Source of the DNA: Terribacillus sp. DMT04
GTDB lineage: Bacteria > Bacillota > Bacilli > Bacillales > Amphibacillaceae
Length of the DNA stretch: 64,000 nt
Reading direction: 5' to 3'
NCBI RefSeq assembly: GCF_019056395.1
Contig: NZ_CP077639.1
Span: forward strand, 1,118,001 to 1,182,000
Part shown: piece after piece, positions 6,012 through 50,476 of the stretch
How positions within the stretch are numbered: position 1 is the stretch's first letter
How the letters are laid out: every line of letters starts with the position of its first letter
The notes under the pieces: generated by a model
Databases searched by the model: none
Told to the model about the DNA's origin: nothing
What the model saw: only the letters and a program-made list of their open reading frames with translations
Program-made: the position numbers and the translations under genes

Positions 6012-7847
6012 ATGGAGCACGAATCCATTCTTTCCCTAGTAGTAGTTATTCTAGCAGCATTCCTCACACCGATCTTAATGAATCGCCTGAAGCTCCGTGC
6101 GCTCCCGGTCGTTGTTGCAGAAATTATCGTTGGTATTATTATCGGCCAAAGCGGTTTTGATTTAGTGAATGAGAGCACGTGGCTGGAAACATTATCTACA
6201 CTTGGTTTTATCTTTCTCATGTTTTTGAGCGGGTTGGAAATTGACTTTTCCATCTTCGCGAATAAGAAGAAAAAGAAAAAGGAAGGTCAGCCTACCCAAT
6301 CTCCGTTTATCATCTCGGTTATTGTGTTCACAGGCATCCTTGTTTTATCTGTCGCATTATCTTATGCCTTCGTTCTAGCGGGCTTTATCGATAATGTCTT
6401 CCTAATGACACTTATCATTTCAACGATTTCATTAGGTGTTGTTGTTCCAACATTAAAAGAAGCACAAATGATGAAATCGACTTTTGGTCAAACGATCTTA
6501 ATGATCGCAGTTATTGCGGATTTGTCCACAATGATCTTGCTCGCGGTGTTTGCCTCCATTTATGGACAAGAAGGCGGGAGCATGTGGCTATTGCTCATTC
6601 TGTTTGGCGTTGGGATCCTGCTTTATTTTATCGGGAAGGTCTTCCAAAAGCGATCCTTTGTTGAAACACTATCAAAGGGAACCGTCCAGATTGGTACAAG
6701 AGCAGTCTTTACATTAATTATCGTACTTGTAGCCGTATCTGAATCTGTAGGTGCTGAGAACATTTTAGGTGCTTTCTTAGCAGGTACACTCGTTTCCTTG
6801 CTATCGCCCAATCAGGAACTTGTCCATCAGCTGGACAGTTTTGGGTATGGCTTCTTGATCCCGATCTTCTTCGTAATGATCGGAGTAGAAATGGACTTAC
6901 GCTCCTTGCTTACAGATCCACAAATATTAATGCTCATTCCGCTGCTTTTAGTTGCACTGCTCGTATCAAAAATCGTGCCAGTGCTGTATCTACGGCGGTG
7001 GTATGACTGGCGCTCGGTGATTAGTGCAGGTACAATTCTGACCTCTACGTTATCGCTGGTTATTGCTGCCGCTGCAATTGGCGAGCGGATCGGCGTTATT
7101 GACAGTAAGATGGAAGGTGCGCTTATTCTCGTAGCTGTTATCAGCTGTATTGTTACACCGTGGTTCTTCAAGCGATTTTATGTGCGTTATGTGGAAACAG
7201 AGAAGAAATATGATGTTGGATTTATTGGTGCAAACCAGCTGACAATGCCTTCTGTCCGCAATTTAGATGAGCGATATTATCGGACGCATTTGTATCATAC
7301 GAAGCAGGACAAGCTTGATGAAAGTTTGGCACAATCCCGCTTTGACATCCGGGAGCTGGAAGATTACGATCCTGTAAAACTGGAAGCTCTCGGGGTGTTC
7401 GATGTTGATATCCTAGTTGTTTCAACTGGGGATGAAGAGAGAAATAAAGAACTCGCGCTTCATGCTAAAGAGCTTGGGGTCGAACGTGTTATTGCTCGTA
7501 TTGAACAGCCCAAATTAAGCGATGAATTGAAAGAAAAAGATGTTGAAGTATTTTCTGTGCTGCTATCAACAAATGCGTTGTTTAAAGCGTTGATTGAAGC
7601 ACCTAGTGTTGTCAATATTATGACGAACCAGGATAATGCGCTTTATCAAGTTTCTGTGCAAAATCCTGCTTATGATGGTGTGTCTCTGCGGCAGTTTCCG
7701 TTTCATGGGGACTTGATTATTGTCCGTATCTTCCGTGGGAAGGATTCTATCGTTCCGCATGGTGACACCGTGCTGCGGTTGGATGATATGCTTATCGTTA
7801 CAGGTTCTGGTGAATATGTAGGAGATTTGCGAGAAGTATTAGAATAA
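6012..7847 (+). CDS. yjbQ: CPA2-family cation/proton antiporter with TrkA domains (YjbQ)
   Basis: Membrane antiporter for Na+ or K+ against H+. Residues 1-395 form about 12 transmembrane segments typical of KefB/CPA2 proteins. Residues 400-520 look like a TrkA-N (RCK) domain and 530-611 a TrkA-C domain, so nucleotide or ion gating is likely. AAGGAGG lies 7 bases before the ATG. The TrkA-N nucleotide loop (VGFIGAN) is degenerate compared with the classical GxGxxG, so ligand binding may be altered. It is followed by an intrinsic terminator. Orthologous position to B. subtilis yjbQ. Confidence 0.88.
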   Translation: MEHESILSLVVVILAAFLTPILMNRLKLRALPVVVAEIIVGIIIGQSGFDLVNESTWLETLSTLGFIFLMFLSGLEIDFSIFANKKKKKKEGQPTQSPFIISVIVFTGILVLSVALSYAFVLAGFIDNVFLMTLIISTISLGVVVPTLKEAQMMKSTFGQTILMIAVIADLSTMILLAVFASIYGQEGGSMWLLLILFGVGILLYFIGKVFQKRSFVETLSKGTVQIGTRAVFTLIIVLVAVSESVGAENILGAFLAGTLVSLLSPNQELVHQLDSFGYGFLIPIFFVMIGVEMDLRSLLTDPQILMLIPLLLVALLVSKIVPVLYLRRWYDWRSVISAGTILTSTLSLVIAAAAIGERIGVIDSKMEGALILVAVISCIVTPWFFKRFYVRYVETEKKYDVGFIGANQLTMPSVRNLDERYYRTHLYHTKQDKLDESLAQSRFDIRELEDYDPVKLEALGVFDVDILVVSTGDEERNKELALHAKELGVERVIARIEQPKLSDELKEKDVEVFSVLLSTNALFKALIEAPSVVNIMTNQDNALYQVSVQNPAYDGVSLRQFPFHGDLIIVRIFRGKDSIVPHGDTVLRLDDMLIVTGSGEYVGDLREVLE

Positions 7848-7848
7848 G

Positions 7849-7880
7849 AAAAAAGGCTGTCTGCGGACAGTCTTTTTTTT
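7849..7880 (+). terminator. Intrinsic terminator of mgtE-yjbQ
   Basis: A-rich stem AAGGCTGTC pairs with GACAGTCTT around the loop TGCG and is followed by eight T residues, immediately after the yjbQ stop. Confidence 0.9.
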
Positions 7881-7895
7881 ATGCAATTATCTGGG

Positions 7896-7924
7896 CACCG
7901 ACTTGCAGGCAGTTGCATACACTA
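7896..7924 (+). promoter_or_regulatory. Sigma-K-like promoter of cotO
   Basis: CACC (7896-7899), 16-base spacer, CATACACTA (7916-7924) matches the late mother-cell sigma-K pattern (mACm, about 15-16 bases, CATAnnnTA). It lies 32 bases before the cotO start. Similar elements precede cotZ and the gene at 9174. Confidence 0.65.
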
Positions 7925-7956
7925 GGTAGGAATCCTAATGCAGAGGAGGACAAAGC

Positions 7957-8415
7957 ATGTCTAAAGGGAAAGTGCGACGCGAGCAGCCGCTGCTATTTAT
8001 CTCCCAGCCAAAACTGGATTTGCCGAAAGCAGCCATGCAGCAAGCTTACCGAACAACGAAAGAAAAAAGAAAAGAAGAGGCAGCAGAAGCGTTACCAGAA
8101 GAAACAGCAGAAGAAATAACAGAAACAGCTGTACAGATGCAAAAAGAGGAGAAATCAGCAGAGCCGGAAGACCCGAAACAGAAAAAGAAGGGGAATTTTA
8201 AAGACCTGTCACTAATTGAGAAGATTGATTACTGCTTGAATCTTCCTTCCCAAATTCCGCGGATGAAGTGTGAAATTGTAACCGAGGAAACCAGTATTAT
8301 TGGAATTATTATGGGGATAGAAGACGATGTTATTCAGGTGAAATCGGTACGCCGTCCATTTAAACGGGAAATTAAGTTAGCATCCATCAAGGATATCAAG
8401 CTGCTTGGATTTTAA
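7957..8415 (+). CDS. cotO: Spore coat protein CotO-like
   Basis: 152 residues. The first 20 residues (PLLFISQPKLDL) and the last 80 (KIDYCLNLPSQIPRMKCEI, then a beta-rich tail ending KDIKLLGF) resemble CotO/YjbX, a morphogenetic protein of the Bacillus outer coat. The middle (about 35-85) is a Lys/Glu/Ala-rich low-complexity linker. It is shorter than B. subtilis CotO (227 residues). A GAGGAGG RBS precedes the ATG. Adjacent convergent cotZ and a sigma-K-like promoter support a coat role. It shares a bidirectional terminator with cotZ. Confidence 0.8.
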   Translation: MSKGKVRREQPLLFISQPKLDLPKAAMQQAYRTTKEKRKEEAAEALPEETAEEITETAVQMQKEEKSAEPEDPKQKKKGNFKDLSLIEKIDYCLNLPSQIPRMKCEIVTEETSIIGIIMGIEDDVIQVKSVRRPFKREIKLASIKDIKLLGF

Positions 8416-24566: not shown

Positions 24567-24639
24567 GATTCCGTAGCTCAGCTGGGAGAGCACTACCTTG
24601 ACAGGGTAGGGGTCGTTGGTTCGAGTCCAATCGGAATCA
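24567..24639 (+). tRNA. tRNA-Val (anticodon GAC)
   Basis: A full cloverleaf folds: acceptor GATTCCG/CGGAATC with discriminator A, D-arm GCTC/GAGC, anticodon stem CTACC/GGTAG with loop TTGACAG (anticodon GAC), T-arm GTTGG/CCAAT with TTCGAGT. CCA is not encoded. The prophage begins directly downstream, so the 3' half is the likely integration target and the gene stays whole. Confidence 0.97.
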
Positions 24640-24672
24640 CTACTCAGAAACGTTGATATGAAGCGTTTCATA

Positions 24673-24708
24673 AGAAAAACACCACTTTCAAAAGAGTGGT
24701 GTTTTTCT
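24673..24708. terminator. Bidirectional terminator between tRNA-Val and int
   Basis: A 14-bp perfect stem (AGAAAAACACCACT with AGTGGTGTTTTTCT) around TTCAAAAG. It can serve the tRNA on the plus strand and the integrase on the minus strand. Confidence 0.88.
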
Positions 24709-24746
24709 CGTTTATAGGATGTTTGATACGAATTTGATACGAATGC

Positions 24747-25868
24747 TTATTCGTTTTGTGCGTAGAACATTTTCCCGAACTCTGCGACAGTATCTTTTTG
24801 CAGGTTAGGCAGCAAGTGACTGTACGTGTCTAGTGTTATCCGAACATTTGCATGGCCGAGTCGTTCTGACACAATCTTAGGATTTACACCTTGCTTTAAT
24901 AAGAGGCTGGCATGTGTATGACGCAGATCATGGAACCGTATCTTTTTGACTTCACTTTTCTTAATCATGGCGTAGAAAGCTCGGTTAAGATTTCGAGGAT
25001 ACAGAGGGGTTCCAACGCTTGTTCGGATAACCAAGTCATGCTCGCTGTTATAAACAGGTCTGTTTGCCATTAGTTCTTGTTTATATATAGCTTTCAACCT
25101 AAGCACCTGGTTGAGAGTGTTCTTGTCGACAGACAACCTCCTGTTACCAGCGCTAGTCTTTGCTCCAATATTTAATTCTCCGTTCATATCCATTGTTTGT
25201 ACAATTGAGATTGTCTCATTTTCCTCATCGATATCTTTCCATCTCAAGCCCAATATTTCGCCACGACGCATACCTGTTGTTAATGCAAGCAAGAATACCG
25301 CGTAGTATCTTGAGTTCTTAGCAGCATCCAAGAATGTTTTAATATCATCCTCATCCCAAACTTCAACTTCTTTTTTGTTAACCTTTGGTGGATCAACAAG
25401 AGAGGCTGGATTACGAATGATCATATCCCATTTTTGCGCTTTATTTAGAGAGTCATTAATAACGGTATGCAGCTTCCGTAGATTTTCAGAAGAAAGGCTG
25501 CCGCTACTTTTCACTTCGTTATAGAATGATTGGATGTCACGCGGAGTTATTTTGCTAATCTCCAAATGACCTAGCGCCGGCACTATATGGCTATTTACAT
25601 AGTAACTATAAGTCTGAAAAGTACTCTTACGAACGTTCAATCCTTTATCTTCAAGCCAGGACTTCATAAACTCAGCGTACAATGTCTTTGAAGGTTCTAC
25701 GTATACACCTTTATTCATAGCGTCCTTTGCCTCTGTCATAGCTGCTTCTGCTTCTTTCTTAGTTTTAAATCCTCGCTTCAGTTTCTTTTTGTATTTACCG
25801 TTATCTTTATAACTAAATGAATAGTACCATTTATTTGCTTTTGCATTTTCATCTTTGTATACCGGCAT
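24747..25868 (-). CDS. int: Prophage tyrosine-recombinase integrase
   Basis: 373 residues. N-terminal arm-binding (AP2-like) domain about 1-55, SAM-like core-binding domain 62-160 and catalytic domain 170-370. Catalytic residues are visible: Arg201 (TTGMRRGE), His313 and Arg316 (HDLRHTH), His339 (LGHANV) and Tyr349 (LDTYSH). It integrates or excises the prophage at tRNA-Val. The ATG overlaps the stop of the small Xre gene (TAATG), so the two are translationally coupled. No separate excisionase was recognised nearby. Confidence 0.96.
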   Translation of the reverse strand: MPVYKDENAKANKWYYSFSYKDNGKYKKKLKRGFKTKKEAEAAMTEAKDAMNKGVYVEPSKTLYAEFMKSWLEDKGLNVRKSTFQTYSYYVNSHIVPALGHLEISKITPRDIQSFYNEVKSSGSLSSENLRKLHTVINDSLNKAQKWDMIIRNPASLVDPPKVNKKEVEVWDEDDIKTFLDAAKNSRYYAVFLLALTTGMRRGEILGLRWKDIDEENETISIVQTMDMNGELNIGAKTSAGNRRLSVDKNTLNQVLRLKAIYKQELMANRPVYNSEHDLVIRTSVGTPLYPRNLNRAFYAMIKKSEVKKIRFHDLRHTHASLLLKQGVNPKIVSERLGHANVRITLDTYSHLLPNLQKDTVAEFGKMFYAQNE

Positions 25869-26074
25869 TAATTATCTTCCTTCCAGGTGATAACTTCTTC
25901 GATTGGTATTTGATAATGGCTGCATACCTTGTCCAACACTTCCATGGCAACATATTCATTTCTACCCATCTTAGCTAAAGTGGCAGATGAGATACCTAAG
26001 TCTTCGCGCATCTTTGACTTCGTTTCTTCTAAATCAATTAGGTGTTTCCATAATGGTGCATAAGAAAACGACAT
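25868..26074 (-). CDS. Small Xre-family HTH regulator coupled to int
   Basis: 68 residues, almost only an HTH_26-type Cro/CI domain: KSKMREDLGISSATLAKMGRN is followed by VLDKVCSHYQIPIEEVI. No C-terminal oligomerisation or protease domain. Transcribed ahead of int with a one-base overlap, so it may control int or act like an excisionase-type helper. A promoter (TTTACA, 18 bases, TATAAT) lies upstream on the minus strand, with two direct repeats that may be its operator. Confidence 0.85.
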   Translation of the reverse strand: MSFSYAPLWKHLIDLEETKSKMREDLGISSATLAKMGRNEYVAMEVLDKVCSHYQIPIEEVITWKEDN

Positions 26075-26117
26075 TAAACGACCTACTTTCTATAGCGTTA
26101 TGTGCATATTATAAAAT

Positions 26118-26143
26118 TAAATGTTTGCATATGTAAATGTTTG
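26118..26143. promoter_or_regulatory. Direct-repeat operator at the xre-int promoter
   Basis: TAAATGTTTG occurs twice (26118-26127 and 26134-26143) separated by CATATG, overlapping the -35 region (TTTACA on the minus strand). A 10-bp direct repeat with 16-base period suits binding by an HTH dimer or two dimers. Confidence 0.5.
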
Positions 26144-26252
26144 TTTCATGTACATAGAGGGAGATACGGGATTTTATAGAAAATATTTCTTGTTTTTATC
26201 TAATCAAGTACAAGTTGTTATGTTTATTTCCTTGTATATTTGTATTATCGAC

Positions 26253-26285
26253 AGTCGGCCAAGAGATACTTGGCTGGCTTTTTTT
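26253..26285 (+). terminator. Leader terminator before the phage late region
   Basis: AGTCGGCCAAG pairs with CTTGGCTGGCT (two G-U pairs) around AGATA, followed by seven T residues. It ends 12 bases before the next start codon and contributes part of its RBS region. It would stop a short transcript from the divergent xre region unless antiterminated. Confidence 0.75.
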
Positions 26286-26297
26286 ATGGAGGAAGAA

Positions 26298-26450
26298 ATG
26301 AACTGTACCAGATGTGAGTCCAGTTACCGGACAATGATTCAGTATTACGGCAATATCATCTGCACCGATTGTTATTTGAAACTCCCATTTGAGCAGAGGA
26401 AACAAGCTTATTGGGACATGGAACGGCGTGTAATAGCAGCGTCCGAATGA
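26298..26450 (+). CDS. Small zinc-ribbon protein, 50 residues
   Basis: MNCTRCESSYRT, then NIICTDCYLKLP: two CxxC pairs 14 residues apart make a likely zinc ribbon. GGAGGAAGAA lies directly before the ATG, at normal spacing. A longer in-frame reading upstream would run through the terminator and is rejected. Similar short zinc-binding proteins are common in Bacillus phages; function unknown. Confidence 0.6.
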   Translation: MNCTRCESSYRTMIQYYGNIICTDCYLKLPFEQRKQAYWDMERRVIAASE

Positions 26451-26453
26451 GTG

Positions 26454-26552
26454 ACTGTGCTCTACGTAGTGTCCAGTTTGACTGGGCTCTATATAGTGTC
26501 CAGTACTGTGCTCTACGTAGTGTCCAGTACTGTGCTCTACGTAGAGACCCCT
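26454..26552. repeat. Four 24-bp tandem imperfect-palindromic repeats
   Basis: Unit ACTGTGCTCTACGTAGTGTCCAGT at 26454-26477, variant at 26481-26504 (central ATATAG), exact copy at 26505-26528, and a fourth with a diverged right end at 26529-26552. Copies 2-4 abut with period 24; three bases separate copies 1 and 2. Each unit has ACTG/CAGT ends and a CTACGTAG core, so each is itself a partial dyad. Contiguous units without spacers exclude a CRISPR. Iteron, ParB/TerS-type or operator function is possible. Confidence 0.9.
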
Positions 26553-26582
26553 AAAAATAGTTTCTTCATATAATGCAAAGAC

Positions 26583-26640
26583 GCTAAAGAAAAGTTTAAA
26601 GAAAAGTTTAAAGAAATTACCTAGCAAATGTTTTTGCTAG
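26583..26640. repeat. AT-rich 12-bp direct repeats and hairpin after the tandem array
   Basis: Three copies of a TAAAGAAAAGTT-like element (about 26585-26616, last one partial) are followed by a perfect 8-bp inverted repeat CTAGCAAA…TTTGCTAG (26621-26640). Together with the array this is the composition of an iteron-plus-unwinding-element origin, but function is unproven. Confidence 0.7.
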
Positions 26641-26679
26641 TCAGGATTACTAGATTTAAAAAGAAGGTGATGGGATGAG

Positions 26680-26820
26680 ATGAAGAATAAAAAGGCTGCA
26701 GCTGCTAAGAAAGTAGACAAGCCGATGACTCGGAAGGACTGGATGGAACTGATGGGAACTAATCGTGATACTTACAAGCGTGGTAAGGGTGGAGCAATAC
26801 GGAATACAAGGAGGCGTTAA
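26680..26820 (+). CDS. Small basic phage protein, 46 residues
   Basis: MKNKKAAAAKKVDKPMTRKD, then WMELMGTNRDTYKRGKGG and a basic tail. AAGAAGGTGATGG precedes the ATG, though spacing is only moderate. Strongly basic (Lys/Arg-rich), with no cysteines. The next gene starts one base after its stop, and its 3' end holds that gene's AAGGAGG RBS. Too short to be found by length filters; coding is supported by the tight packing. Function unknown. Confidence 0.6.
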   Translation: MKNKKAAAAKKVDKPMTRKDWMELMGTNRDTYKRGKGGAIRNTRRR

Positions 26821-26821
26821 G

Positions 26822-27307
26822 ATGACTGATCATCCTGGTTCGATAAGGTATGAGTGTTTAAATTGCAAATCAACAAGATCAACCATTAAAGGAAAATATG
26901 GAGAAGTAATAGTGTGCGAGGTATGCAATGGTGCAATGGTGGATGTGTTCTATATTCACAAATATAAAGCAGCTGCAGAAACTAAACCGATCAACGATTT
27001 GCAGATTAAAGTCGAAGTAGATACAGCTGAATTGGATGCAGCAATCGAGAAGGCTAGAAAGTTGGACGAACTTGAAGTGTCTAAGTATATCCATAAGTAT
27101 GGTCCTAACAAGAAAGAGAAGCTGCTGGTGATTGAGCTGGATGATATCGATTCTATTCCTAAGATTATTTTCAAAGGGAAACAGGTCGATGGTATTCATG
27201 AGTTAGATATTGCTTGGCATTCAGAATCTGAATCTAATGCTGCAACAGGAGTAAGGTACACTCAATCAGATACGGACAGAGAGATATCTGTTGTTTATGG
27301 CGACTGA
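26822..27307 (+). CDS. Phage hypothetical protein with N-terminal zinc ribbon
   Basis: 161 residues from the ATG after AAGGAGG (spacing 7). The N-terminus YECLNCKS…VCEVCNGAM has two CxxC pairs, a zinc ribbon. A middle segment (VDTAELDAAIEKARKLDE) is helical, and the C-terminal half (LLVIELDDIDSIPKIIFKGK) is beta-rich. It overlaps the HNH gene by 11 bases. Position in the pre-packaging cluster suggests a late-region accessory function; I do not recognise a named family. Confidence 0.75.
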   Translation: MTDHPGSIRYECLNCKSTRSTIKGKYGEVIVCEVCNGAMVDVFYIHKYKAAAETKPINDLQIKVEVDTAELDAAIEKARKLDELEVSKYIHKYGPNKKEKLLVIELDDIDSIPKIIFKGKQVDGIHELDIAWHSESESNAATGVRYTQSDTDREISVVYGD

Positions 27308-27605
27308 GTACAAGACAAAGCAGCAGAAGCAAAGGTTCTACAAGTCAGGACCATGGCGAAAGTTAAGGCTCGTTGCATTAGAGCGTGACAACCATGAATG
27401 TCAACAGTGCAAGCGCAAGGGTAAGTTCAGCAAGGGACAGAACGTTCACCATCTTAAAGAGATCTATCATCATCCTAAGCTGGCGCTTGAGTTGGATAAC
27501 CTTGAGACATTGTGCATCGATTGCCACAACAAGGAACACAAGAGGACGTTCAATAACATTGGCACGAAGAAGGATAGGAAGGAGTGGAATGATGAGCGAT
27601 GGTAA
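27297..27605 (+). CDS. HNH homing-type endonuclease of the DNA-packaging module
   Basis: 102 residues. A CxxC pair (CQQCKRKG), the HNH core VHHLKEI…LDNLETLCIDCHNKEHKR, and a basic C-terminus are seen. In HK97-like cos phages an HNH protein encoded just before TerS works with terminase to cut cos. Its place one gene before TerS, followed by a GC-rich gap, supports that role rather than a selfish homing enzyme. ATG chosen at MATEYK. Confidence 0.88.
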   Translation: MATEYKTKQQKQRFYKSGPWRKLRLVALERDNHECQQCKRKGKFSKGQNVHHLKEIYHHPKLALELDNLETLCIDCHNKEHKRTFNNIGTKKDRKEWNDERW

Positions 27606-28029
27606 ACCAAACATTATTGTATCTGAAGTGACAGAGAAACATTTGATGATGAGGTATCCACACTTGTCAAAGGAAGATGTGAAGTCATTGTTTGTTCTTG
27701 GACTTCCAATAGAGACACCAATGAAGGTGTTTGGTGACAATGGTTATTTATTGCATACACAGAAACAATTGGGACTACAAGTTTATTGGGCAGACTTTTT
27801 TAATGTTGATACAATCATTGACTTGTTTGCAGGTGAGGACGGCATTTATTTTACTATTGTGGAGGGAAAAGAAATGAGTGTACAAGATAAATCGAAAGAG
27901 AAGGTACTAAATCTGTTTCAGGAATATGACGTCGAATACATTGATTACCGTGTTCAGGATGATGAATATTCCATCAGTCTTGTGAAAAAAGGAAAGCAGG
28001 AAGAACAGGAAGAAAAAGAAGAGAAATAA
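27592..28029 (+). CDS. Phage hypothetical protein, 145 residues
   Basis: Start MSDGKPNIIV after GGAGTGG, overlapping HNH by 14 bases. The N-terminal 75 residues (MMRYPHLSKEDVKSLFVLGLP) look like a globular helical domain; residues 100-145 are highly charged, ending in a Glu/Lys run. No motif recognised. It is the last gene before the cos-like gap. Confidence 0.7.
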   Translation: MSDGKPNIIVSEVTEKHLMMRYPHLSKEDVKSLFVLGLPIETPMKVFGDNGYLLHTQKQLGLQVYWADFFNVDTIIDLFAGEDGIYFTIVEGKEMSVQDKSKEKVLNLFQEYDVEYIDYRVQDDEYSISLVKKGKQEEQEEKEEK

Positions 28030-28150
28030 ATACACAAGACACCCCCCGCCTAAAAGTTTTGGGCTTTTTTTATGCCCGGGGAACCGGGGCAGGGGGTCGA
28101 TTTTCCAGATTTATCGCGCGTGGGCGCATGAGGGAGGGGGGTACCCATGA
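28030..28150. other. Candidate cos packaging site (GC-rich gap before terS)
   Basis: About 120 bases with G/C runs (CACCCCCCGCC, GCCCGGGGAACCGGGGC, AGGGGGTCG, CGCGCGTGGGCGC, GAGGGAGGGGGG) much richer than the surrounding phage DNA. It includes a weak terminator-like hairpin (28048-28075). Location between the HNH gene and TerS is where HNH-dependent cos phages are cut. The exact nick positions cannot be read. Confidence 0.6.
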
Positions 28151-28522
28151 ATGTCTAAGAAAAATCCGATTAAAAATCAAGATGAACAAATAGCTGCTGA
28201 GATTGAAAAGTGGAATGTGACACTGAGCAAGATGCCATCAAACAAGCGAGAAGCTGCACAGGTACTTGTCGAGCGGGTTGCTTTTATGACTGTCACTCTT
28301 CGCATATTGGAAGAAGACATAAAAGCCAAAGGGCCAACTTACAGATTCGTAAACGGTTCACAAAAGATGCATGTGGAGAACCCCTCCCAGAAATCTTATA
28401 ACACCATGATCAATCGATACACTGCAGCATGCGATAAGCTGCTTGCAATGGTGCCGAACGCTCCGGTAGATATCGATAAAGTACAAGCTAAGAAACAGCG
28501 CTCTGCGGAAGACTTGGTATGA
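28151..28522 (+). CDS. terS: Terminase small subunit (P27 family)
   Basis: 123 residues. The pattern NKREAAQVLVERVAFMTVTL … GSQKMHVENPSQKSYNTM is the P27/terminase_4 signature. It recognises the packaging start and directs TerL. A GGGAGGGGGG RBS is about 11 bases before the ATG. It overlaps terL by 4 bases (ATGA). Confidence 0.9.
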   Translation: MSKKNPIKNQDEQIAAEIEKWNVTLSKMPSNKREAAQVLVERVAFMTVTLRILEEDIKAKGPTYRFVNGSQKMHVENPSQKSYNTMINRYTAACDKLLAMVPNAPVDIDKVQAKKQRSAEDLV

Positions 28523-39300: not shown

Positions 39301-40806
39301 GCGTCAAATACTTTCGGGACTTTTAAGCGTTGGGGCGGTTGGATTAGCGGAGTGTTTGATGATGTTGTTCAAGGTGCTAAGGACTTACCGGGCAAGATAG
39401 GCGCAGGAATTTCTAAGATGGCTGGGAAAGTTACTGGCGGAATTGACACTTTGAAAGGCAAAATGCTCGGCGGACTGGAAGGTGGCGTCAACGGAGTCGT
39501 AAAAGGTATCAACTGGGTGCTGAAGCATGTAGGTGTAAAAGAAGAGAATCGGCTGGCTAAGTGGGTTCCTGAATATGCGCATGGCACAGACGGTCATCCT
39601 GGAGGCTTGGCAATCGTTGGCGATGGAAAAGGCGCCAATGCCGGTCAAGAACTTATCCAGACACCAGACGGAAAAGTCGGATTGAGTCCAGCAAAAGATA
39701 CTCTCGTCAACCTTCCAGAGGGAACAAGCGTCCTCTCAGCATCTGACACGAAAAGGTTATTTAGCAATATTCCTAAATATGCTTGGGGAATTGGAGATTT
39801 AAAGAAAGCTGCAGGCCTCACTAAAGATTATTTAGTAGGAAAGGGTAAGAAAGCAGCGAGTTCTTTAAAAGATACAGCGTTAGACGTATGGGATTATGTA
39901 TCCGATCCAAAGGAATTGCTTAAGAAAGCGTTGGAAACTACAGGATTTGAAATGCCGGAATTCCCGGGTGGTTTCGCAGCTGCAACAATGCCGGCACTTA
40001 ACAAGATGCTTTCAGGAGCTACAAATTTCATTAAAGGAAAAATAAGTAGTTTTGGTTCATTCGATAGCGATGCTCCCGGCAACGTAAAGAGCTGGATATC
40101 AGCAGCCATTGCTCGAACGGGTGTACCATCATCATGGCTCGGTCCCTTGACTACAATTGCCATGAAAGAATCCGGTGGCCGTACTGGTCCATCTACCATA
40201 AATAAGTGGGATATTAACTGGCAGCGTGGAATTCCGTCCATGGGTCTCATGCAGACAATTGGACCAACGTTCAATGCTTTCAAGGAAAATGGCTGGAATG
40301 ACATTATGAATCCAGTTCACAATGCTGCAGCTGCTATCAATTACATCAAGAGAAGATACGGTAATGTGTTTAATGTGCCTGGTATTAAGGCGTTGCGGCA
40401 AGGACGTCCGTATGTTGGGTATGCTACAGGCGCGCGTATTGCTCAGCATGGCTTGTATGAGTTGTCTGAAGAAGGACATCCGGAATGGGTTATCCCTACG
40501 GATCCAAAGAGACGTACTGAGGCTATGAAGCTTCTTGCTCTTGCCGGCAGGGAGATAACCGGGAATAAGCGTCCTAATCAGCTACCGAATCCCACTGGCG
40601 GTACTGGTGACGGCGTAATGGCAGATGTCATCAATTTACTAAGAGAAATGGTAGGTATCCAACAGGAACAACTGCAAGCTATCATGAACGGCCATATCTT
40701 AGAGATTGATGGCAAGAAAGCCGGTCAGTTGCTTGAAAAGTATATAACTGATCAGCAAAACAGGAAAAAGGGAAGAGGTGGACGCTATGCCCCTAAAGGG
40801 ATTTGA
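36379..40806 (+). CDS. Tape measure protein with lytic transglycosylase domain
   Basis: 1475 residues. Coiled-coil N-terminus (about 1-130), the TP901 core (SSYEDSTVRMKNSLGLTTGE, about 175-420), hydrophobic helices (500-590), long coiled coil (600-900), and an SLT/lysozyme-like domain at about 1230-1345: IAMKESGGRTGPSTINKWD (catalytic Glu), SMGLMQTIGPTF, AAINYIKRRYG. The length sets the tail length (long, roughly 200 nm if the usual ratio holds). The SLT domain cuts peptidoglycan during DNA entry. AAAGGAGGAAC RBS. Confidence 0.94.
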   Translation: MERIEGLSIGLNLDATALERGIPGLKSKLVGLNSEMKANMSAFDKSEQSVERYETSLRGLDKKISIQKRLVSEYKAEYEKMVKEYGEGSKQADKAAKAYNNQVAALNNTERYTKNLREEMKKLKKSQQEADYGWSKMSSNMKTAGGHMKTMGDGIKGLGSSMTAFVTTSAVGLGTAMGLAASSYEDSTVRMKNSLGLTTGEAKNLTEASRNIYKKGFSESTQEIDTALIQTRQNIRDLNEADLERITNKALVLADTFEADVNEVTRAGNNVMKAFGLEADEAFDLMAVGAQKGLNFSNEMFDNLSEYAPLFGKMGYSAEEYFELLINGAEAGVYNLDYINDVMKENQLRLKDGSKTTSEAMEKLSSSTQKVWKEFLKGDKTVKDVSNAVLAELEGMDDQVATNQIGVDLYGTKWEDLEADAMYSLGGIDGGLKDVDGTMDEMINNAEQSLSQQWKSTWREAKAALVPLGKTLLEFARDVMPEVKEGIAGVTDWLRNLDDSTKKNILKFGAFVAAAGPVLMTLGSLVSSVAGVVTIAGSLSGMIAGAGGLGAALAAFATGPVGITIGALAALTAGGIALYNHLKQDAIPEVDLFGDEVSSSTEQAVGGFMKLNDEATVQLNELAWSGKSVSEDMRDSLVATFDEMGTQIVEGLKEKKDESLQALYEFFAEAEGISDEDQQNLIQKLEEGYKKREEKVREGQDRIDDILRTAHEENRKTTAAEDEEMNKIKQSFQDQMLVALTKNQEEQEAILRNMQSQSSEISARQAADTVKNSAEARNKVIADAEQQYSDTVATWEMMRDETGEIKAEEANALIEEAKRQRDESVGHAEDMHENVVSEARLQAEEHVSEVDWETGEVLSKWQKLQNDVGLKQAEMYANAINTWNLLKEYVPRKAGEMKDMAIDKFLDLKNKGSSLFSALKGATIGRFSEMTADTLSNVSRWKNSVQNVASNLKDRALGKFSDMKNGAIKRFTDMASNTFGTFKRWGGWISGVFDDVVQGAKDLPGKIGAGISKMAGKVTGGIDTLKGKMLGGLEGGVNGVVKGINWVLKHVGVKEENRLAKWVPEYAHGTDGHPGGLAIVGDGKGANAGQELIQTPDGKVGLSPAKDTLVNLPEGTSVLSASDTKRLFSNIPKYAWGIGDLKKAAGLTKDYLVGKGKKAASSLKDTALDVWDYVSDPKELLKKALETTGFEMPEFPGGFAAATMPALNKMLSGATNFIKGKISSFGSFDSDAPGNVKSWISAAIARTGVPSSWLGPLTTIAMKESGGRTGPSTINKWDINWQRGIPSMGLMQTIGPTFNAFKENGWNDIMNPVHNAAAAINYIKRRYGNVFNVPGIKALRQGRPYVGYATGARIAQHGLYELSEEGHPEWVIPTDPKRRTEAMKLLALAGREITGNKRPNQLPNPTGGTGDGVMADVINLLREMVGIQQEQLQAIMNGHILEIDGKKAGQLLEKYITDQQNRKKGRGGRYAPKGI

Positions 40807-41500
40807 ATTTAACGGACAGAGGAATGACAAAATTCACATGCTGCGGGGGCGCAGTAAATCCCCGTTCTCTTCGATAGAAAGAGAGATTGTAAAGTATCCT
40901 GGAGGGCATCGGTTAAAGAAAACAACGCGAGGGTTAATTGAAATCAGCCAGCCAGTAGGATTCAAGGTGAAGAATGATGAAGAGCAAATGCAGATTGTGG
41001 AATGGATGACAGACTGGCTTATTATAGAAGACTGGTGCCCGCTAAAGTTTGATGACGAGCCAGGCAGAGTTTATCCGGCTGTACTGCAGAACGATATGAG
41101 CGACTTTGAAAAGATGGCTACGCTTCGGCAAGGCACACTCAGCTTTACAGCGCTGCACGCAGCCGGCAAAGAAATAGAGCTCAATTTACTACCTGACCGA
41201 CGCTCTTACTTCATAACAGGGCAGCGCGAAACGGACTGGACCAGTAAAACAACATTCGAAGCACCAACTAGCAAATACATCATTGAAGAGGCTGGCGGTG
41301 GTCGCATCGTTCTTAACTATAATTTTATTGCCGGCGATGTCCTCGCGATTGATTACCATAAACGAAAAGTGTTGCTGAATGGTAAGAGTCTAGCAACAGC
41401 CATTGCGCTCAATACAGTATGGTTTCCGTTGCGTCCAGGCGCCATGACCATAAATGCTACTGAAAATACGATTATGACTTATGTTGAGAGATTTCATTAA
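40787..41500 (+). CDS. Distal tail protein (Dit)
   Basis: 237 residues from MPLKGFEFNG, chosen because GGAAGAGGTGG is 6 bases upstream; an in-frame GTG nine bases earlier is less likely. SPP1 gp19.1-type N-terminal beta domain with GGHRLKKTTRGLIEISQPV and the C-terminal galectin-like part. It forms the hexameric hub joining tube and tip. It overlaps the tape measure by 20 bases. The tail-tip gene normally follows directly; here a 1.2-kb cargo insertion intervenes. Confidence 0.88.
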   Translation: MPLKGFEFNGQRNDKIHMLRGRSKSPFSSIEREIVKYPGGHRLKKTTRGLIEISQPVGFKVKNDEEQMQIVEWMTDWLIIEDWCPLKFDDEPGRVYPAVLQNDMSDFEKMATLRQGTLSFTALHAAGKEIELNLLPDRRSYFITGQRETDWTSKTTFEAPTSKYIIEEAGGGRIVLNYNFIAGDVLAIDYHKRKVLLNGKSLATAIALNTVWFPLRPGAMTINATENTIMTYVERFH

Positions 41501-41625
41501 AGAGAAAAGGTTAATTCACAAACTAATAAACTTAAATCTCGCTAACTATATCTATACAGTATCGGTTTTCCTTACACTTAGATTCATATATAATCGAACT
41601 AAGTTAAATAAAATGGAGGCTAAAT

Positions 41626-41808
41626 ATGAAGAGAGAAGTGAAAATACTCATCATTTTAGGGATATTATTTTTTGGTTGGCTTTCTCTATACGATTTATTT
41701 AAAAATGGTGCCCTTTTCTTTTGGGAGAACCTCTTACAAACTATCTATATAGTTCTATTTATAAAAATTGTTACATGGTTAACTGGACAATTAAAAAAGA
41801 AAAACTAA
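41626..41808 (+). CDS. Small two-helix membrane protein, possible immunity protein
   Basis: 60 residues: MKREVKILIILGILFFGWL (helix 1) and WENLLQTIYIVLFIKIVTWL (helix 2), with basic ends (QLKKKN). GGAGG precedes the ATG at good spacing and a TATAAT (41589-41594) lies upstream. The gene is between dit and tal and is not a tail gene. Size and topology resemble small bacteriocin immunity proteins. The partner is the secreted protein encoded 117 bases downstream. Function is inference. Confidence 0.7.
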   Translation: MKREVKILIILGILFFGWLSLYDLFKNGALFFWENLLQTIYIVLFIKIVTWLTGQLKKKN

Positions 41809-41925
41809 AGAGATAGTTTTTGTGTTTATATTACATTTATAGTAACAAATTCCATAAAAACCATTGAATTTCCTAGTATACTAAGTTAGCATACTCCTTG
41901 AATACATATAAAAGGAGATGGAAAT

Positions 41926-42528
41926 ATGAAGAATCATTTTGTAAGAGTATTGTCGCTTGTAACTGTAGTAGCATTGTTCACGTGTCTATTAGCTCCCTTT
42001 AGTGTAGCAGCAAAGTCATCAGAATCATCAGAATCATTAGAAGAAGAAAAGGTAAAAGCAGCAGCTGAACAAATAAAATTTGTAGCCGAAGAAGCTACTA
42101 TAAAAGATTCAAATGGGAACATAATTGGCTTAGATATTGAAAAAATCGAACAAAAATACGGCAGCTCTCCAGTATTGGAAAAAATCAAAAAGGATCAGCA
42201 AGCAACCGTCCAAGATATCAAAAATCCAAAATTGGATTCTCAACAATGTGCATTTTCATCAACATTTAGTACATTTAGTACATCCGGTGTAATTATGCCT
42301 ATTGGATTTCATGATATGGAAGAATTTGAGTGCGTTCAAGATGGTTTTAGTTCCTTTTTTGTGGATCTCGTACCAACTACGGTATTAACTACAGCATATC
42401 AATACTTCTTGGATAAAAATTATACAGGTACAGCAAGAGCTTTGTTGAAAGCTGGAGCAAAAGGTAGCATTTGGGGTATTGCCGGTTCACTTACATGGGT
42501 AGCACTTAAGTGTAGGATTACAAATTAA
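41926..42528 (+). CDS. Secreted cargo protein, possible bacteriocin/toxin
   Basis: 200 residues. Clear Sec signal (basic MKNHFVRV, hydrophobic core LVTVVALFTCLLAPFSV, cleavage near VAA-KSS). Mature part: acidic helical segment (about 35-100) that looks like a propeptide, a Ser/Thr/Phe-rich stretch (FSSTFSTFST-like), then a C-terminal Gly/Ala-rich amphipathic or membrane-active helix (ARALLKAGAKGSIWGIAGSL) ending KCRITN. Three Cys are present in the mature part. It has its own RBS (GGAGATGG) and terminator. No named family recognised. Confidence 0.75.
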   Translation: MKNHFVRVLSLVTVVALFTCLLAPFSVAAKSSESSESLEEEKVKAAAEQIKFVAEEATIKDSNGNIIGLDIEKIEQKYGSSPVLEKIKKDQQATVQDIKNPKLDSQQCAFSSTFSTFSTSGVIMPIGFHDMEEFECVQDGFSSFFVDLVPTTVLTTAYQYFLDKNYTGTARALLKAGAKGSIWGIAGSLTWVALKCRITN

Positions 42529-42544
42529 ATAATAACTTTTAATT

Positions 42545-42580
42545 AAAAGACCGTATGCTTAAATTGGCATACGGCCTTTT
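42545..42580 (+). terminator. Intrinsic terminator of the cargo pair
   Basis: AAAAGACCGTATGC/GCATACGGCCTTTT hairpin (loop TTAAATTG) closing the cassette inside the late operon; the late transcript must read through it to reach tal. Confidence 0.88.
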
Positions 42581-42734
42581 AATGTTCTTAAGTTTTACAG
42601 TAAACACTTAAAAAGTGATTAATTGTAAACCACCTTTATTATATGTGTTTATATAAATTTCCTTGGTCGCTTATTCGGCATATTGAGCTCTTGTCTACTA
42701 AAATTCAATACTTTACAAGAAAGGAGGACATAGT

Positions 42735-45700
42735 TTGACAGAACTATATATTTTCGGCCAAGATGACCAGCTGCTTACAGTTATCACAGAATCCACAGGG
42801 CTTGTCAGCGCACCTTTCCGAGAGGAATTAAACAAGGTGTCTGATACGCCTTTTTCTTTTACCGTCGAGGCTGATACGGAAGAATCCCAGCATGTAAAAG
42901 AAGAGAATCAAGTCGTATTCAAAGACAAGGATGGCGACTTGCGGCTGTGCGTTATCAAGGAACTAGATGACAGTGACGGCGCGGATGGTCCAGAAACAAC
43001 AGCTATTTGCGAGCCGGCGTTCATGGAACTCAAAGAACACATCATTGTAGACAGACGCTTCACCGACAAAGAGGCGCAGGTCGCATTAGATGCTGCACTG
43101 GAAGGTTCGCGCTGGGCAGGAGAAGTGGAAGTATCGCTGGGTACCTATTCCACGAACTTCTACTACATGACCAGTATTGACGCTATCTGGAACATCCTCG
43201 AAACATGGGGAGGCGACTTTAAAGATGTAGTCGAATTTGTGGAGGATACCAACCAGATTAAGCGGCGAGTTATCAAGCTGCAGCAGCGACGGGGCGTTGA
43301 TCGCGGCCAGCGCTTTGAAATTGACCATAACATCACAGAAATTCAGCGAACAGTCTTGTCTTACCCGGTTACTGCAATGTACGGCCGCGGCGCTTCCCTC
43401 GAGACAGAAGGCGGCGGATATACGCGCTATCTCGATTTTGCAGAAGTGGAATGGAAGAAAGAGAATGGTGATCCGGTAGATAAGCCGAAAGGAAAGAAAT
43501 GGGTTGGGGACCCGGAGGCTTTGCAAGAGTATGGCCGTGTCCATGAAGGTAAGCTACTACACCGTGAAGGCATCTTTAGCAATCAAGATTACGAGACGGC
43601 GGAGGAACTGCTGCAAGCAACGTGGCAGGCACTGCAGGAAGCAAAGGAACCAGAGGTTAATTACAGCCTGTCTGTGGAACTGCTGGAGCATCTGGCGGGC
43701 TATGAACATGAGTACGTGCAGCTGGGCGACACTTCTCGAGCGATTGACCGTAACTTTTCACGACCGATTGAAATACAGGCACGCATCATCGCAATGGAAT
43801 ATGATCTAGTTGATATTGAAGGAACTGCTACCGTAGAAATGGGGCAGTTCCTTTCTGTTAATTCGGACAATCGGCTTCAACGCGTAATCGAGACCATCGA
43901 TGGCAACCGTGGTAAATGGGAGCATATATCAAATGACCATTTTCCGGATGTTGTGCCGGCAGTACCTTCAAATATAAAAGCGGAGGGGCTGTTTAAGTCC
44001 ATCCTACTGCAATGGGACTATACTGGTGAGATTTATATAAAGCATTACGAAGTGTACGGGTCTCAAGTTCAAGGATTCGTGCCACAACCGCAACATTTGC
44101 TGTATAGAGGTAATGTCTCATCTTTCTCGCACGCTGTAGAGACAGAACAGAAATGGTATTACCGAGTAAGAGCAGCTAATCACCAAGAGCGAGCAAGCGA
44201 CTACAGCCAGGAAGTATCAGCAAGCACCTTGCGTGTTATCAGCGACGATATTCTGTTTGGTGAAGACATTGCAGCCCAACTCCGGGAACTGAGTATGACC
44301 GCCCAACTGCTTGCTGATGGCAGTATCAATTTTGAGCAGATATCGGAAACGGCTAGGGAGCAGATTAAGCAGGATTCTACCAAGTATACGGATGAGCAAA
44401 TTACTACTGCAAGAAATGCTCTTATCCAGAACATCGCTGCTAAAGCCGATTTGGAATTTGTGAATGGTAAGTTCAAATTTTCGGATGAAAAGCTGCAGGA
44501 GTTAGATGGCGAGATTGTGGAGCTTACAAACAAGACAATCGCTTATAATCAAGACTTTGTGGAAGTAAAACAGAGCGTTGATGATGTGAAAGGCTCCATT
44601 GAAACAACAATTCAGCAGGTTAATGGCATTGATGATACCGTAAAAGACCAGCAGCTGCAGATTAAGCAGAATGCAAAAGGCATCAGTAGCAAGGTCAGCA
44701 CGGACACCTACCAACAAGATGCAGCTACTATAAATCGGAGATTCGAGAATGTAAACAGTGAGTTCTCCCAGCAAGCGGGATTAATTCAGCAGCGGGTTAC
44801 GGAAACGAAGTACAACGAAGGTATTAGCGGGCTGCGGCAGGCTATTGAGGGCATTGAGATTGGCGGTACAAATTTAATCCGGAATTCCCGTTATTTTAAG
44901 AATGTCGAGGGCTGGGTAGGGTCAACTCAGATGCCTGTATCTGTTACTGCTAACGGTAATCTTCTAGTTGAGATTATCACTCCCGTTACAGCGCATCATT
45001 TTTGGACGAAAATAACTGAGGATATAGAAAAAGGTGTTCCTTACACTTTAACTATGAAAGCAAGGTCAAGTGACATAGGCTCTCCATCATTTGTATTAGC
45101 AGATTCAAATGGCGGGGTATTTTTTGATTCTATGAATGTTCCTGATTTTTCGCAACCAGATGTGTTCGAGATACTAACTTCTCAATTTACCCCTGTAAAT
45201 GATGGTGATTTAACGCTTGCAACGAGTTCAACTGGAAGACCGGATGGATGGTATCTAGAAATTGAATGGATTAAGTTAGAACGTGCAAACAAACCTTCTG
45301 CTTGGTCGGCAGCTCCAGAGGACTACCTGGATAGGTTTGTGAGGAATGAGTCCGACATCAAGCAACAAGCTGGGCTAATCAGCCAAAAGGTAAGCCAAAC
45401 AGTGTACAAAACCGACCAAGATAAAGTCGTCGAACAGTTGGCAGATCACACATCCTTGATTGAGCAGACAGCGAAGAAGATTGAATCGAAGGTTGAGTCC
45501 AGTACCTTCAATAATTTGCAGCAAACTGTAAGCGAACAGGCAGCCACAATTGAACAGCAGGCTGGGCTAATTAGACAGAAGGTTGATTCGTCTATGTTCA
45601 ATAACTTAAAAGGAACAGTGGAAAGTCACACAAGCCAGATCAAGCAGCAGGCAACTCAAATATCGCAGCGGATTACTAGTACAGAGTTGAAGAGTGCTAT

Positions 45701-47777
45701 TGATAGTGTTACAAAGAAGTACATCACATCAGGAACTGGCTCGAGTAATTATGGGAAATGGACAAAGATATTTGATCTTGACATATATAATCGATACTCG
45801 TGGGTTTCGCTAGATTTTTCATTTATAGGTGGTGCAGATGGTGGATCTAAGACAAGATATGGAACAGGTTTTGCGAGGTTAAAACAGCAAAATAGCATGG
45901 GGAGCCCGCCTTTATGTCAATTAGAAATTAGAGAATCAACTGGCATTAGCGAAAATGATTTCGTCTATGTAGTTACGCAAAATGATTCAAGCAAAACTGT
46001 TATGACTGTTTATATGAAAATATCAAATTCATACGAGAGTTATTACATTAGCCCTGTTTCAATTGCTGGTCAGACTACGCCTAACTTTTATGAAAATACC
46101 GGTTTTGTGAGCCCGGTTCCAGGTGATTATGTTTGGGCTAAGCGTAATTTGGTTGCTGGAGATACTGAAAATATAAATGGTGTTCCTTCCGGTGAAGTTA
46201 CACAAAGGCTTTCTACAGCCGAATCTGAGATTAAACAGCAAGCCGACAACATCGAGCTGCGTGTCCGCAAAGATGGTATCGTAGCTGCTTTAAATGTTTC
46301 GTCTGAAGGTATCCGTATCGACGGCAGACTGCACCATATCACCGGCACTACCCTGATTGACAGAAGTGTTATAAAAGCAGCGCATATTGCCAATGCTGCC
46401 GTAGGCAATGCAGCAATAGCCAATGCTGCTATAACAAAAGCGAAAATAGGAACTGCGGCAATAGGAACTGCGCAAATTGAGAACGGCGCTATTACCAATG
46501 CTAAGATTGCAAACTTAGCTGTCGATGATGCGAAGATAGCGAGTCTATCAGTTAACAAATTACGAGCTGGTACGCTTGATGCGAATAAGATTAAAATTCG
46601 GGGAGGCAGCTCGGTTGACTATATGGATATACAAGGCTCTAATTTAGAGTCTCGTGGTCGTTACAGTATGAGATGGAAGAATAGGTCAAGCACAATTGAT
46701 GCCAGTCTGTACCTAGCTAATGGCAATTTTCGAGTTGCGAACTGGACAGATGAACGATCAATTTTCCTAACGCCTTACGGATTGTCAACTTTCGCAGATG
46801 GTTATGGTGATGGTACTAGTTCAGGGATGTTGGAATTCTTCTCTGAAGAATATGAGAGTAATACACATGGTATAACGTTAGGTAGTCAATACGGTATTAC
46901 GGGTGTTAAATCAGCGAATAACAGCGTCATTATTGATTCTCATGCATCAGCGAGAATTGAGAGTCGTATATCCCCTGTATACATCAGAGCAGGACATGGT
47001 TTACAGCCTTATGACATGACTTTTGCATTCACTCCATCAAGTGATAGCGCCGATAGTTATTTAATGTATGGAAATACAGGAGCGCCAAATGTCGGTTTAC
47101 GATTCTATAGAGGAGACGGAGATCCACGAATAGCTGTCGTTGACAGAAACTATGCGCGTGGTGGAAATACATGGTTTGATGTAGGTAACATCTCAGCAAA
47201 CAGTATTGATAAGCGTGACGGCAGTGCTAGTGTCTATTGGAACGGCACAGGTGGCGGAACTCTGCTTACCACTAACCCGCAAACCCCTCTAATGGCTGAT
47301 GGTGTGCGAGGAACTGCTGAATACTTCTATATCGGATCAGATGGCGGTACTAAAATTACAAATGGCGCGGGTTACAATTACGGCAGAGGGTTAGTCCATA
47401 AGCCTATATGGGCCAGTGCATTTAATCAGGTATCTTTAATTGAATATAAGACTAATATCGAAAGGCTATCTGTTGATGCGCTAGACCTAATAAACAGCAC
47501 CACATTGACAAAGTACAATCTGAAAGCTGATTTAGAAGAAGGACATATTGTAGACAAAGTTGGTCTTATCATTGGTGGAGATTATAGTACCCCTAAGGAA
47601 GTTATTAATCCTGATGGAGATGCAATTGACCAATATGCCATGAACACACTAAGCTGGAAAGCTATTCAGGAACTGTCTTCGGAATATGAGAGTGCCGCAA
47701 AAGAAATAAACTTCTTACGATTAAGAGTGAGCACTTTAGAACAGCAAATTCAAGACTTAAAAAACAATGCAGCATAA
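42735..47777 (+). CDS. Tail endopeptidase/receptor-binding protein (Tal) with S74 chaperone
   Basis: 1680 residues from a TTG start after AAGGAGG. Tal/prophage endopeptidase tail hub about 1-400; FN3-like domain about 410-497 (IYIKHYEVYGSQV, WYYRVRAANHQERAS); coiled coils 500-710; a carbohydrate-binding-like domain about 711-870 (NLIRNSRYFKNVEGW); coiled coils 875-1000; pentad-like repeat NAAIANAAITKAKIG near 1220; beta-rich tip; Peptidase S74 intramolecular chaperone from about Ser1567 (VSLIEYKTNIERLS). Probably self-cleaves before Ser1567, leaving a trimeric receptor-binding tip. Confidence 0.88.
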   Translation: MTELYIFGQDDQLLTVITESTGLVSAPFREELNKVSDTPFSFTVEADTEESQHVKEENQVVFKDKDGDLRLCVIKELDDSDGADGPETTAICEPAFMELKEHIIVDRRFTDKEAQVALDAALEGSRWAGEVEVSLGTYSTNFYYMTSIDAIWNILETWGGDFKDVVEFVEDTNQIKRRVIKLQQRRGVDRGQRFEIDHNITEIQRTVLSYPVTAMYGRGASLETEGGGYTRYLDFAEVEWKKENGDPVDKPKGKKWVGDPEALQEYGRVHEGKLLHREGIFSNQDYETAEELLQATWQALQEAKEPEVNYSLSVELLEHLAGYEHEYVQLGDTSRAIDRNFSRPIEIQARIIAMEYDLVDIEGTATVEMGQFLSVNSDNRLQRVIETIDGNRGKWEHISNDHFPDVVPAVPSNIKAEGLFKSILLQWDYTGEIYIKHYEVYGSQVQGFVPQPQHLLYRGNVSSFSHAVETEQKWYYRVRAANHQERASDYSQEVSASTLRVISDDILFGEDIAAQLRELSMTAQLLADGSINFEQISETAREQIKQDSTKYTDEQITTARNALIQNIAAKADLEFVNGKFKFSDEKLQELDGEIVELTNKTIAYNQDFVEVKQSVDDVKGSIETTIQQVNGIDDTVKDQQLQIKQNAKGISSKVSTDTYQQDAATINRRFENVNSEFSQQAGLIQQRVTETKYNEGISGLRQAIEGIEIGGTNLIRNSRYFKNVEGWVGSTQMPVSVTANGNLLVEIITPVTAHHFWTKITEDIEKGVPYTLTMKARSSDIGSPSFVLADSNGGVFFDSMNVPDFSQPDVFEILTSQFTPVNDGDLTLATSSTGRPDGWYLEIEWIKLERANKPSAWSAAPEDYLDRFVRNESDIKQQAGLISQKVSQTVYKTDQDKVVEQLADHTSLIEQTAKKIESKVESSTFNNLQQTVSEQAATIEQQAGLIRQKVDSSMFNNLKGTVESHTSQIKQQATQISQRITSTELKSAIDSVTKKYITSGTGSSNYGKWTKIFDLDIYNRYSWVSLDFSFIGGADGGSKTRYGTGFARLKQQNSMGSPPLCQLEIRESTGISENDFVYVVTQNDSSKTVMTVYMKISNSYESYYISPVSIAGQTTPNFYENTGFVSPVPGDYVWAKRNLVAGDTENINGVPSGEVTQRLSTAESEIKQQADNIELRVRKDGIVAALNVSSEGIRIDGRLHHITGTTLIDRSVIKAAHIANAAVGNAAIANAAITKAKIGTAAIGTAQIENGAITNAKIANLAVDDAKIASLSVNKLRAGTLDANKIKIRGGSSVDYMDIQGSNLESRGRYSMRWKNRSSTIDASLYLANGNFRVANWTDERSIFLTPYGLSTFADGYGDGTSSGMLEFFSEEYESNTHGITLGSQYGITGVKSANNSVIIDSHASARIESRISPVYIRAGHGLQPYDMTFAFTPSSDSADSYLMYGNTGAPNVGLRFYRGDGDPRIAVVDRNYARGGNTWFDVGNISANSIDKRDGSASVYWNGTGGGTLLTTNPQTPLMADGVRGTAEYFYIGSDGGTKITNGAGYNYGRGLVHKPIWASAFNQVSLIEYKTNIERLSVDALDLINSTTLTKYNLKADLEEGHIVDKVGLIIGGDYSTPKEVINPDGDAIDQYAMNTLSWKAIQELSSEYESAAKEINFLRLRVSTLEQQIQDLKNNAA

Positions 47778-49558: not shown

Positions 49559-50476
49559 ATGAGTAGAGTATCATTAGACACGTTGCTAAGCCGTTCTGAA
49601 AGAAACATAGGTTCTGGCATGAATGCCATCGTAAAGAAGAGCGCGTTGGAGGTTATTCGACGTGCATACAAGGAAGGAATTAACGTACAAATTTCACACG
49701 GAATGAGGACTTATGCAGAGCAAAACGCACTGTATGCGCAAGGACGAACGAAGCCAGGCAACATCGTTACAAATGCCCGCGGTGGTCAATCAAATCATAA
49801 TTTCGGTTTGGCTGTCGATTACTTCCTCACCACATGGGACGGCAGTAAAGCTACATGGTCAGTAAACAGCGATTGGAGACGAGTTGCTGCTATTGGTAAG
49901 TCACTTGGATTCGAGTGGGGCGGGGATTGGAGAAGCTTTAAAGACTATCCACATCTTGAGATGACGGGCGGATTGTCTACAGCGCAATTGCGTGCTGGCA
50001 GACGTCCGAGTCTTAAAGATCGGACTGGAACCAAGACTGCAGCACCGAGTAAAGTAGTTAGCGAGCCTGCATCTGGAGGTACCGACTGGGTTAAAGATGC
50101 GCAGAAGTGGGCAAACAGCCGTGACTATCCAAGTAAGGCGCGCTTCAAAGAATTGGACGAGGACGGCCTACCTGGACCATTATCTTTTGATGCTTTCCTT
50201 CGTATCTATCAATACTTTGGCAAGACTGGCATCGATGGAGAATGGGGTCCGAAGAGTCGTGCTGCAGCTGTTATCCAGGACAAGGACAATCATACTCCTG
50301 GTTGGACGCGATTGCTGCAGGCTACGCTTTGCTTGTATGGTTATAAGTTAAAGGTGGACGGTATTTTTGGAAGGAATACCGATAAAGCACTGCGTGCATT
50401 CCAGCGATCCAGAGGCATTACAGATGATGGAATTACTGGACCTAACACATTTACAGAAATGTTCAAAGCAGCATAA
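49559..50476 (+). CDS. Endolysin, VanY/M15 L-alanyl-D-glutamate peptidase
   Basis: 305 residues. N-terminal M15 peptidase domain with zinc ligands His80 and Asp87 (SNHNFGLAVDY) and His132 (PHLEM), and QISHGMRTYAEQ. A linker (150-165) is followed by a C-terminal region with a peptidoglycan-binding domain (LYGYKLKVDGIFGRNTDKA, RAFQRSRGITDDG). It cleaves the L-Ala-D-Glu bond of the stem peptide, as in Ply500 and CwlK. Final gene of the late plus-strand operon; terminator follows. Confidence 0.93.
   Translation: MSRVSLDTLLSRSERNIGSGMNAIVKKSALEVIRRAYKEGINVQISHGMRTYAEQNALYAQGRTKPGNIVTNARGGQSNHNFGLAVDYFLTTWDGSKATWSVNSDWRRVAAIGKSLGFEWGGDWRSFKDYPHLEMTGGLSTAQLRAGRRPSLKDRTGTKTAAPSKVVSEPASGGTDWVKDAQKWANSRDYPSKARFKELDEDGLPGPLSFDAFLRIYQYFGKTGIDGEWGPKSRAAAVIQDKDNHTPGWTRLLQATLCLYGYKLKVDGIFGRNTDKALRAFQRSRGITDDGITGPNTFTEMFKAA

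Follow-up and report, generated by a model that had tools for sequence, protein, structure and literature searches.

What are a gene for a secreted protein and a gene for a small membrane protein doing in the tail module of a prophage? The question is raised by a 64,000-nucleotide stretch of the chromosome of Terribacillus sp. DMT04 (contig NZ_CP077639.1, positions 1,118,001 to 1,182,000 of the forward strand; hereafter the window), in which a block at 41502-42713, between the genes for the distal tail protein (dit) and the tail-tip protein (tal), holds open reading frames (ORFs) for a 60-residue and a 200-residue protein, followed by a terminator. An earlier note, made from the DNA letters alone, had read the two as a secreted bacteriocin with its immunity protein, of a type that it could not name. 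The present analysis supports that reading and proposes a type, the EntV or enterocin O16 kind: the block is probably a phage-acquired two-gene cassette for an exported, processed EntV-like bacteriocin and a 60-residue protector, by which the lysogen would gain both a weapon and immunity.

The larger gene (41926-42528, + strand) encodes a candidate EntV-like bacteriocin preproprotein. The EntV family profile (NCBIfam EntV_fam, NF058576) matches its product with 35.3 bits and an E-value of 1.1e-8 over positions 3-161 of 162, short of the curated cut-off of 130 bits; by its sequence, the protein is related to the EntV / enterocin O16 kind but divergent, and falls outside the family as that cut-off defines it. 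It appears to be laid out as a signal peptide (residues ~1-30, assigned by eye), a pro-segment (~31-98), a linker (~99-130) and a four-helix C-terminal domain (131-200), and among solved structures its AlphaFold2 model is best matched by that of EntV136 (7roa; VIA-align comparison). Sequence searches of solved chains returned chance-level matches only, both with the single sequence and with the A1 profile, and Pfam and PADLOC gave chance-level or no matches for either protein of the insert. The three cysteines counted in the earlier note are those of the exported part (Cys108, Cys136 and Cys196), to which the whole protein adds a fourth, Cys20, in the signal peptide. Cys136 and Cys196, both in the C-terminal domain, are invariant in nine of nine sequences and reproduce the cysteine pair of the EntV family, about 61 residues apart; the pair is not a strict family feature, since one protein that scores above the cut-off (L105) has a single cysteine. 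The same note held that identity with a known virion protein would speak against a toxin, a point checked in part: the virion-protein profiles of Pfam and PHROGs do not match the secreted protein, and profile, cysteine spacing and modelled fold all point to EntV. Searched alone against genomes, the window protein found no relatives, while an alignment gave ten loci, five of which (L090-L094) were repeats of places already found.

The 60-residue protein (41626-41808, + strand), a candidate immunity protein with two transmembrane (TM) helices, is assigned to no family by library searches, whose matches are at chance level. Two-helix ORFs of 54-88 residues recur beside EntV-like genes elsewhere, on either side and on either strand. 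A hidden Markov model (HMM) of 13 such neighbours, from which the window was excluded, was run over 1689 small ORFs drawn from the window and from twenty regions of 8-16.6 kb surveyed around relatives; it recovers the window's ORF with an E-value of 1.3e-6, first after 8 training members, and the next ORF in the list (E = 0.0017) itself adjoins an EntV-like gene (L018). Adjoining matches outside the training set were also obtained in Planococcus (E = 1.8e-9) and Metasolibacillus (E = 4.6e-10). With a neighbour defined as an ORF of 45-100 residues within 350 bp that bears a ribosome-binding site (RBS) and two hydrophobic segments, called by a hydropathy window rather than a dedicated predictor, such neighbours accompany 27 of 37 EntV-like loci, which like the 13 training neighbours were hand-picked after a first view of the neighbours and include two from one genome (L006 and L014), against 18 of 165 control ORFs, the other ORFs of the twenty regions (Fisher p = 8e-14). 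Left out of the 37 were broken or truncated copies, repeated places and a few others (L005, L007-L009, L013, L022, L027, L028, L030, L035-L037, L090-L094, L098, L099 and L148), together with the window itself; several of these excluded loci do possess such a neighbour (L005, L008, L022, L027, L028, L037 and L094). The co-occurrence in other genomes on which the earlier note had made its reading depend is thereby found, in the counts as in the held-out match.

Three groupings, (L003, L015, L004), (L017, L096) and (window, L016), are present in the trees of both genes; the last is supported at just 0.41 in the tree of the bacteriocin. The two trees diverge outside these groupings, and their overall agreement (Mantel p = 0.046, 11 pairs) goes with a rank correlation of only 0.26. 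The arrangement of the window recurs identically in genome G023 (L005), where the small gene precedes, on the same strand and at a gap of 117 bp, a bacteriocin gene that is interrupted. Plasmid pN24509_1 of Bacillus paramobilis carries the pair in convergent orientation (L144:2968-3735; WP_098238725.1 and WP_070169294.1, both annotated as hypothetical); tblastn of the 60-residue protein against plasmids gave no match, though the HMM detects its relative beside this plasmid copy. A small membrane protein is encoded beside EntV-like genes across genomes, as would be expected of an immunity protein.

That the pair is a foreign insertion follows from comparison with the closest relative prophage found, L041, from a genome of the same genus (G128). 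The two are 81-86% identical in DNA on both flanks; because the homology reaches 41501 and sets in again at 42714, with unrelated DNA in between, the foreign block is delimited to 41502-42713. A 496-bp stretch occupies this site in L041 and, identically, in the IMG/VR contig L039, and is unrelated to the insert of the window. The block has a GC content of 0.31 against 0.42 for the window, and a GGAG-type RBS precedes both ORFs, so that the earlier description of about 1.2 kb of AT-richer DNA holding two genes with their own RBSs stands. An insert of foreign composition that differs between close relatives is what characterizes a phage moron. The flanking genes are dit (40778-41500, + strand; Pfam SPP1_Dit, E = 3.2e-24, and PHROGs) and tal (42735-47777, + strand; Pfam Prophage_tail, E = 6.1e-34). 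Their description in the earlier note as normally adjacent requires a caveat. Among 32 other dit-tal loci, of related phages and prophages, 13 had no detectable Tal and 6 had a long Dit; with L039 and L041 counted once, 12 junctions of the short-Dit type were retained (Dit being a fragment in L045). Four of these 12 have at most 141 bp between the genes, and eight hold RBS-bearing ORFs, some on the opposite strand (L039/L041, L042, L044, L045, L057, L061, L149 and L150); at this position Virgibacillus phage Mimir87 encodes a DUF4145 protein, and two hypothetical genes are present in Bacillus phage BCJA1c. Tail components, as opposed to cargo, may be among these ORFs. The dit-tal junction is a variable accessory-gene site in this phage lineage.

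Signals for transcription within the insert are of unequal weight. The terminator announced earlier is present behind the bacteriocin gene (42551-42574, + strand) and has a 9-bp stem; the terminator scan returned two such sites, one on each strand, where 0.6 were expected, and the extended stem has a folding energy of -21.6 kcal/mol. The -10-like boxes of the earlier note can be read at 41589-41594 (TATAAT) and 41877-41882 (TATACT), but a sigma-70 scan, which gave 5 sites in the region where 6.5 were expected, placed no promoter on the + strand ahead of either gene; support for the promoters ends at these boxes, which makes them the weak part of the observation. An imperfect inverted repeat, AGTATAC-N7-GCATACT (41875-41895), overlies the box upstream of the bacteriocin gene and is a possible operator.

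Together, these features suggest how the cassette might work. The 200-residue protein would be exported by Sec and lose its signal peptide, and Cys136 and Cys196 would be joined by a disulfide; a DsbA-type Thioredoxin_4 protein is encoded in the host genome. EntV is matured by an M4 gelatinase, but no Peptidase_M4_C domain was found in the genome of the window's host, which has five S8 protease matches. A secreted host protease that is not of the M4 type and is probably a subtilisin-like S8 enzyme would cut the flexible linker (~residues 99-130) and thereby free a four-helix C-terminal bacteriocin of ~65-75 residues, whose site of action would be the membrane of related bacteria. The 60-residue protein would sit in the membrane of the producer and protect it. 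The lysogen would acquire a weapon with immunity to it, and the phage a fitter, protected host.

The assignment of immunity to the small protein is where this scheme meets the most resistance. A profile of 14 of these proteins matches 91 of 397 genomes at E <= 0.001, many of them weakly, and an EntV-like ORF lies within ~1.5 kb at only 7 of the 30 best places, the window included and all seven being members of the profile; the remaining 23 (of L114-L143) are solitary and, judged by eye, in varied chromosomal settings. In E. faecalis, the sole adjoining candidate, ef1097b, is reported to give no protection, according to a passage of PMC10380289. These observations weigh against the favored reading, and the ef1097b report weakens the case for immunity more than that for the bacteriocin. 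They would fit an EntV-like bacteriocin whose 60-residue neighbour is a general small membrane protein, such as a secretion helper, a regulator or an envelope-stress protein, as would the division of the neighbours of EntV-like genes into several dissimilar two-TM types. We regard this explanation as unlikely in view of the enrichment beside EntV-like genes and of the groupings common to both trees; moreover, solitary immunity genes are known from other bacteriocin systems, a non-producing, immune-only type being called common in pneumococci in the part of PMC11155488 consulted. The solitary two-helix genes are compatible with such immune-only genes and also with another role. For EntV / enterocin O16 itself, a review passage calls for studies of how Enterococcus faecalis protects itself (PMC5454873), and an excerpt of another paper merely speculates about a magnesium transporter (PMC3667150). 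It is tentatively proposed, as a reading somewhat less likely than not, that the two-helix neighbours are the missing self-protection factors of the EntV group, which also circulate alone as immune-only genes, and that temperate phages of Bacilli carry the pairs as lysogen weapons, here at a dit-tal cargo site.

The location in a tail-tip module, at a site where related phages carry other genes, invites the thought that the pair serves the phage, in superinfection exclusion or lysis or with the secreted protein on the virion, and that the likeness to EntV is merely ancestral. A PHROG of unknown function, PHROG_31694, matches the N-terminal half of the 200-residue protein (E = 4.5e-19), from which it can be deduced that the PHROGs source data included a related protein, and two more relatives have phage genes around or close to them. 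L074 (genome G019) is a prophage in which PHROGs place the EntV-like gene directly upstream of that for the terminase small subunit (L074:7964-8772), with a two-TM ORF that lacks a recognized RBS directly behind it. L076 (genome G141; 5356-8228), perhaps a prophage remnant, carries ORFs of holin type and, split in two, of endolysin type; its EntV-like gene follows 1.4 kb further on (PHROGs). In L070, an integrase-type recombinase adjoins the EntV-like gene. Against a phage function, no phage genes were apparent by eye in the remaining 17 of the 20 regions, a Bacillus plasmid also carries the pair, and six EntV-like proteins had no match among 50,697 phage records, all of which makes such a function quite improbable. 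Scans of IMG/VR with EntV-like queries also found no relative, by a method that needs short conserved peptides and therefore misses distant copies. A very small chance is given to the cassette being a former bacteriocin pair that is now silent or unmatured in this host: the unsupported promoters, the missing M4 protease and the interruption of some relatives elsewhere (L005, L007 and L008) would agree with decay, but neither window ORF is broken, RBSs and a terminator are in place, and the S8 proteases would offer another route to maturation.

Three other identities were weighed for the pair and set aside: a tail or virion protein, as neither gene matches such a profile; a lysis pair, the endolysin being encoded at 49559-50476; and a cytoplasmic toxin-antitoxin pair, as the larger protein starts with a signal peptide (by eye).

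The prophage as a whole was recognized with PHROGs by its integrase, terminase large subunit, portal, major head protein and endolysin. At 24567-28519, a tRNA-Val gene is followed by the integrase gene (24747-25868) and then by just ~2.6 kb up to the terminase large-subunit gene, which leaves little space for early genes. Early-type genes identified by eye lie downstream of the endolysin gene, with repressor-like ORFs at 54600 and 55085 and a RecT-like ORF at 58996. Because of this order, and of the little room near the integrase gene, the window may contain a second prophage, or a rearranged one.

As far as the searches go, two features are new, the two-helix partner that recurs beside these genes and their carriage within the tail module of a phage; neither is described in the portions of the literature searched. 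If the proposal is true, phages arm their hosts with a bacteriocin of the EntV kind, and a recurrent partner in the wider EntV group would supply an immunity family open to testing and a lead to the bacteriocin target. Searches for phage cargo could also be directed at the dit-tal junction.

Like other phage morons, the insert is an AT-rich foreign block between core late genes, with its own terminator and an accessory function; unlike the usual ones, its cargo is a secreted bacteriocin-like pair, six related proteins being unmatched in the phage records searched. With EntV (enterocin O16, enterococcin V583, EF1097), the window protein appears to share, as modelled, the signal peptide and three-helix pro-segment, the flexible linker, the four-helix C-terminal domain and a cysteine pair 60-61 residues apart. 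It differs in its score far below the family cut-off, in a host devoid of M4 protease, in its location in a prophage and in its adjoining two-TM partner, of a family undescribed for EntV in the passages searched. Two further names are mentioned together with enterococcin V583: streptococcin A-M57 (M57 streptococcin) is called similar to it in a passage of PMC3667150, and corynicin JK stands with it in the title of Swe et al. (2007) in the reference list of that paper. The pair also recalls, by description and as an analogy, dysgalacticin (DysA), a Sec-exported plasmid-encoded bacteriocin that targets the glucose/mannose phosphotransferase system, a target that serves only as an analogy for the window pair, and whose immunity protein DysI is, according to the part of PMC8308785 consulted, membrane-associated and encoded next to the bacteriocin.
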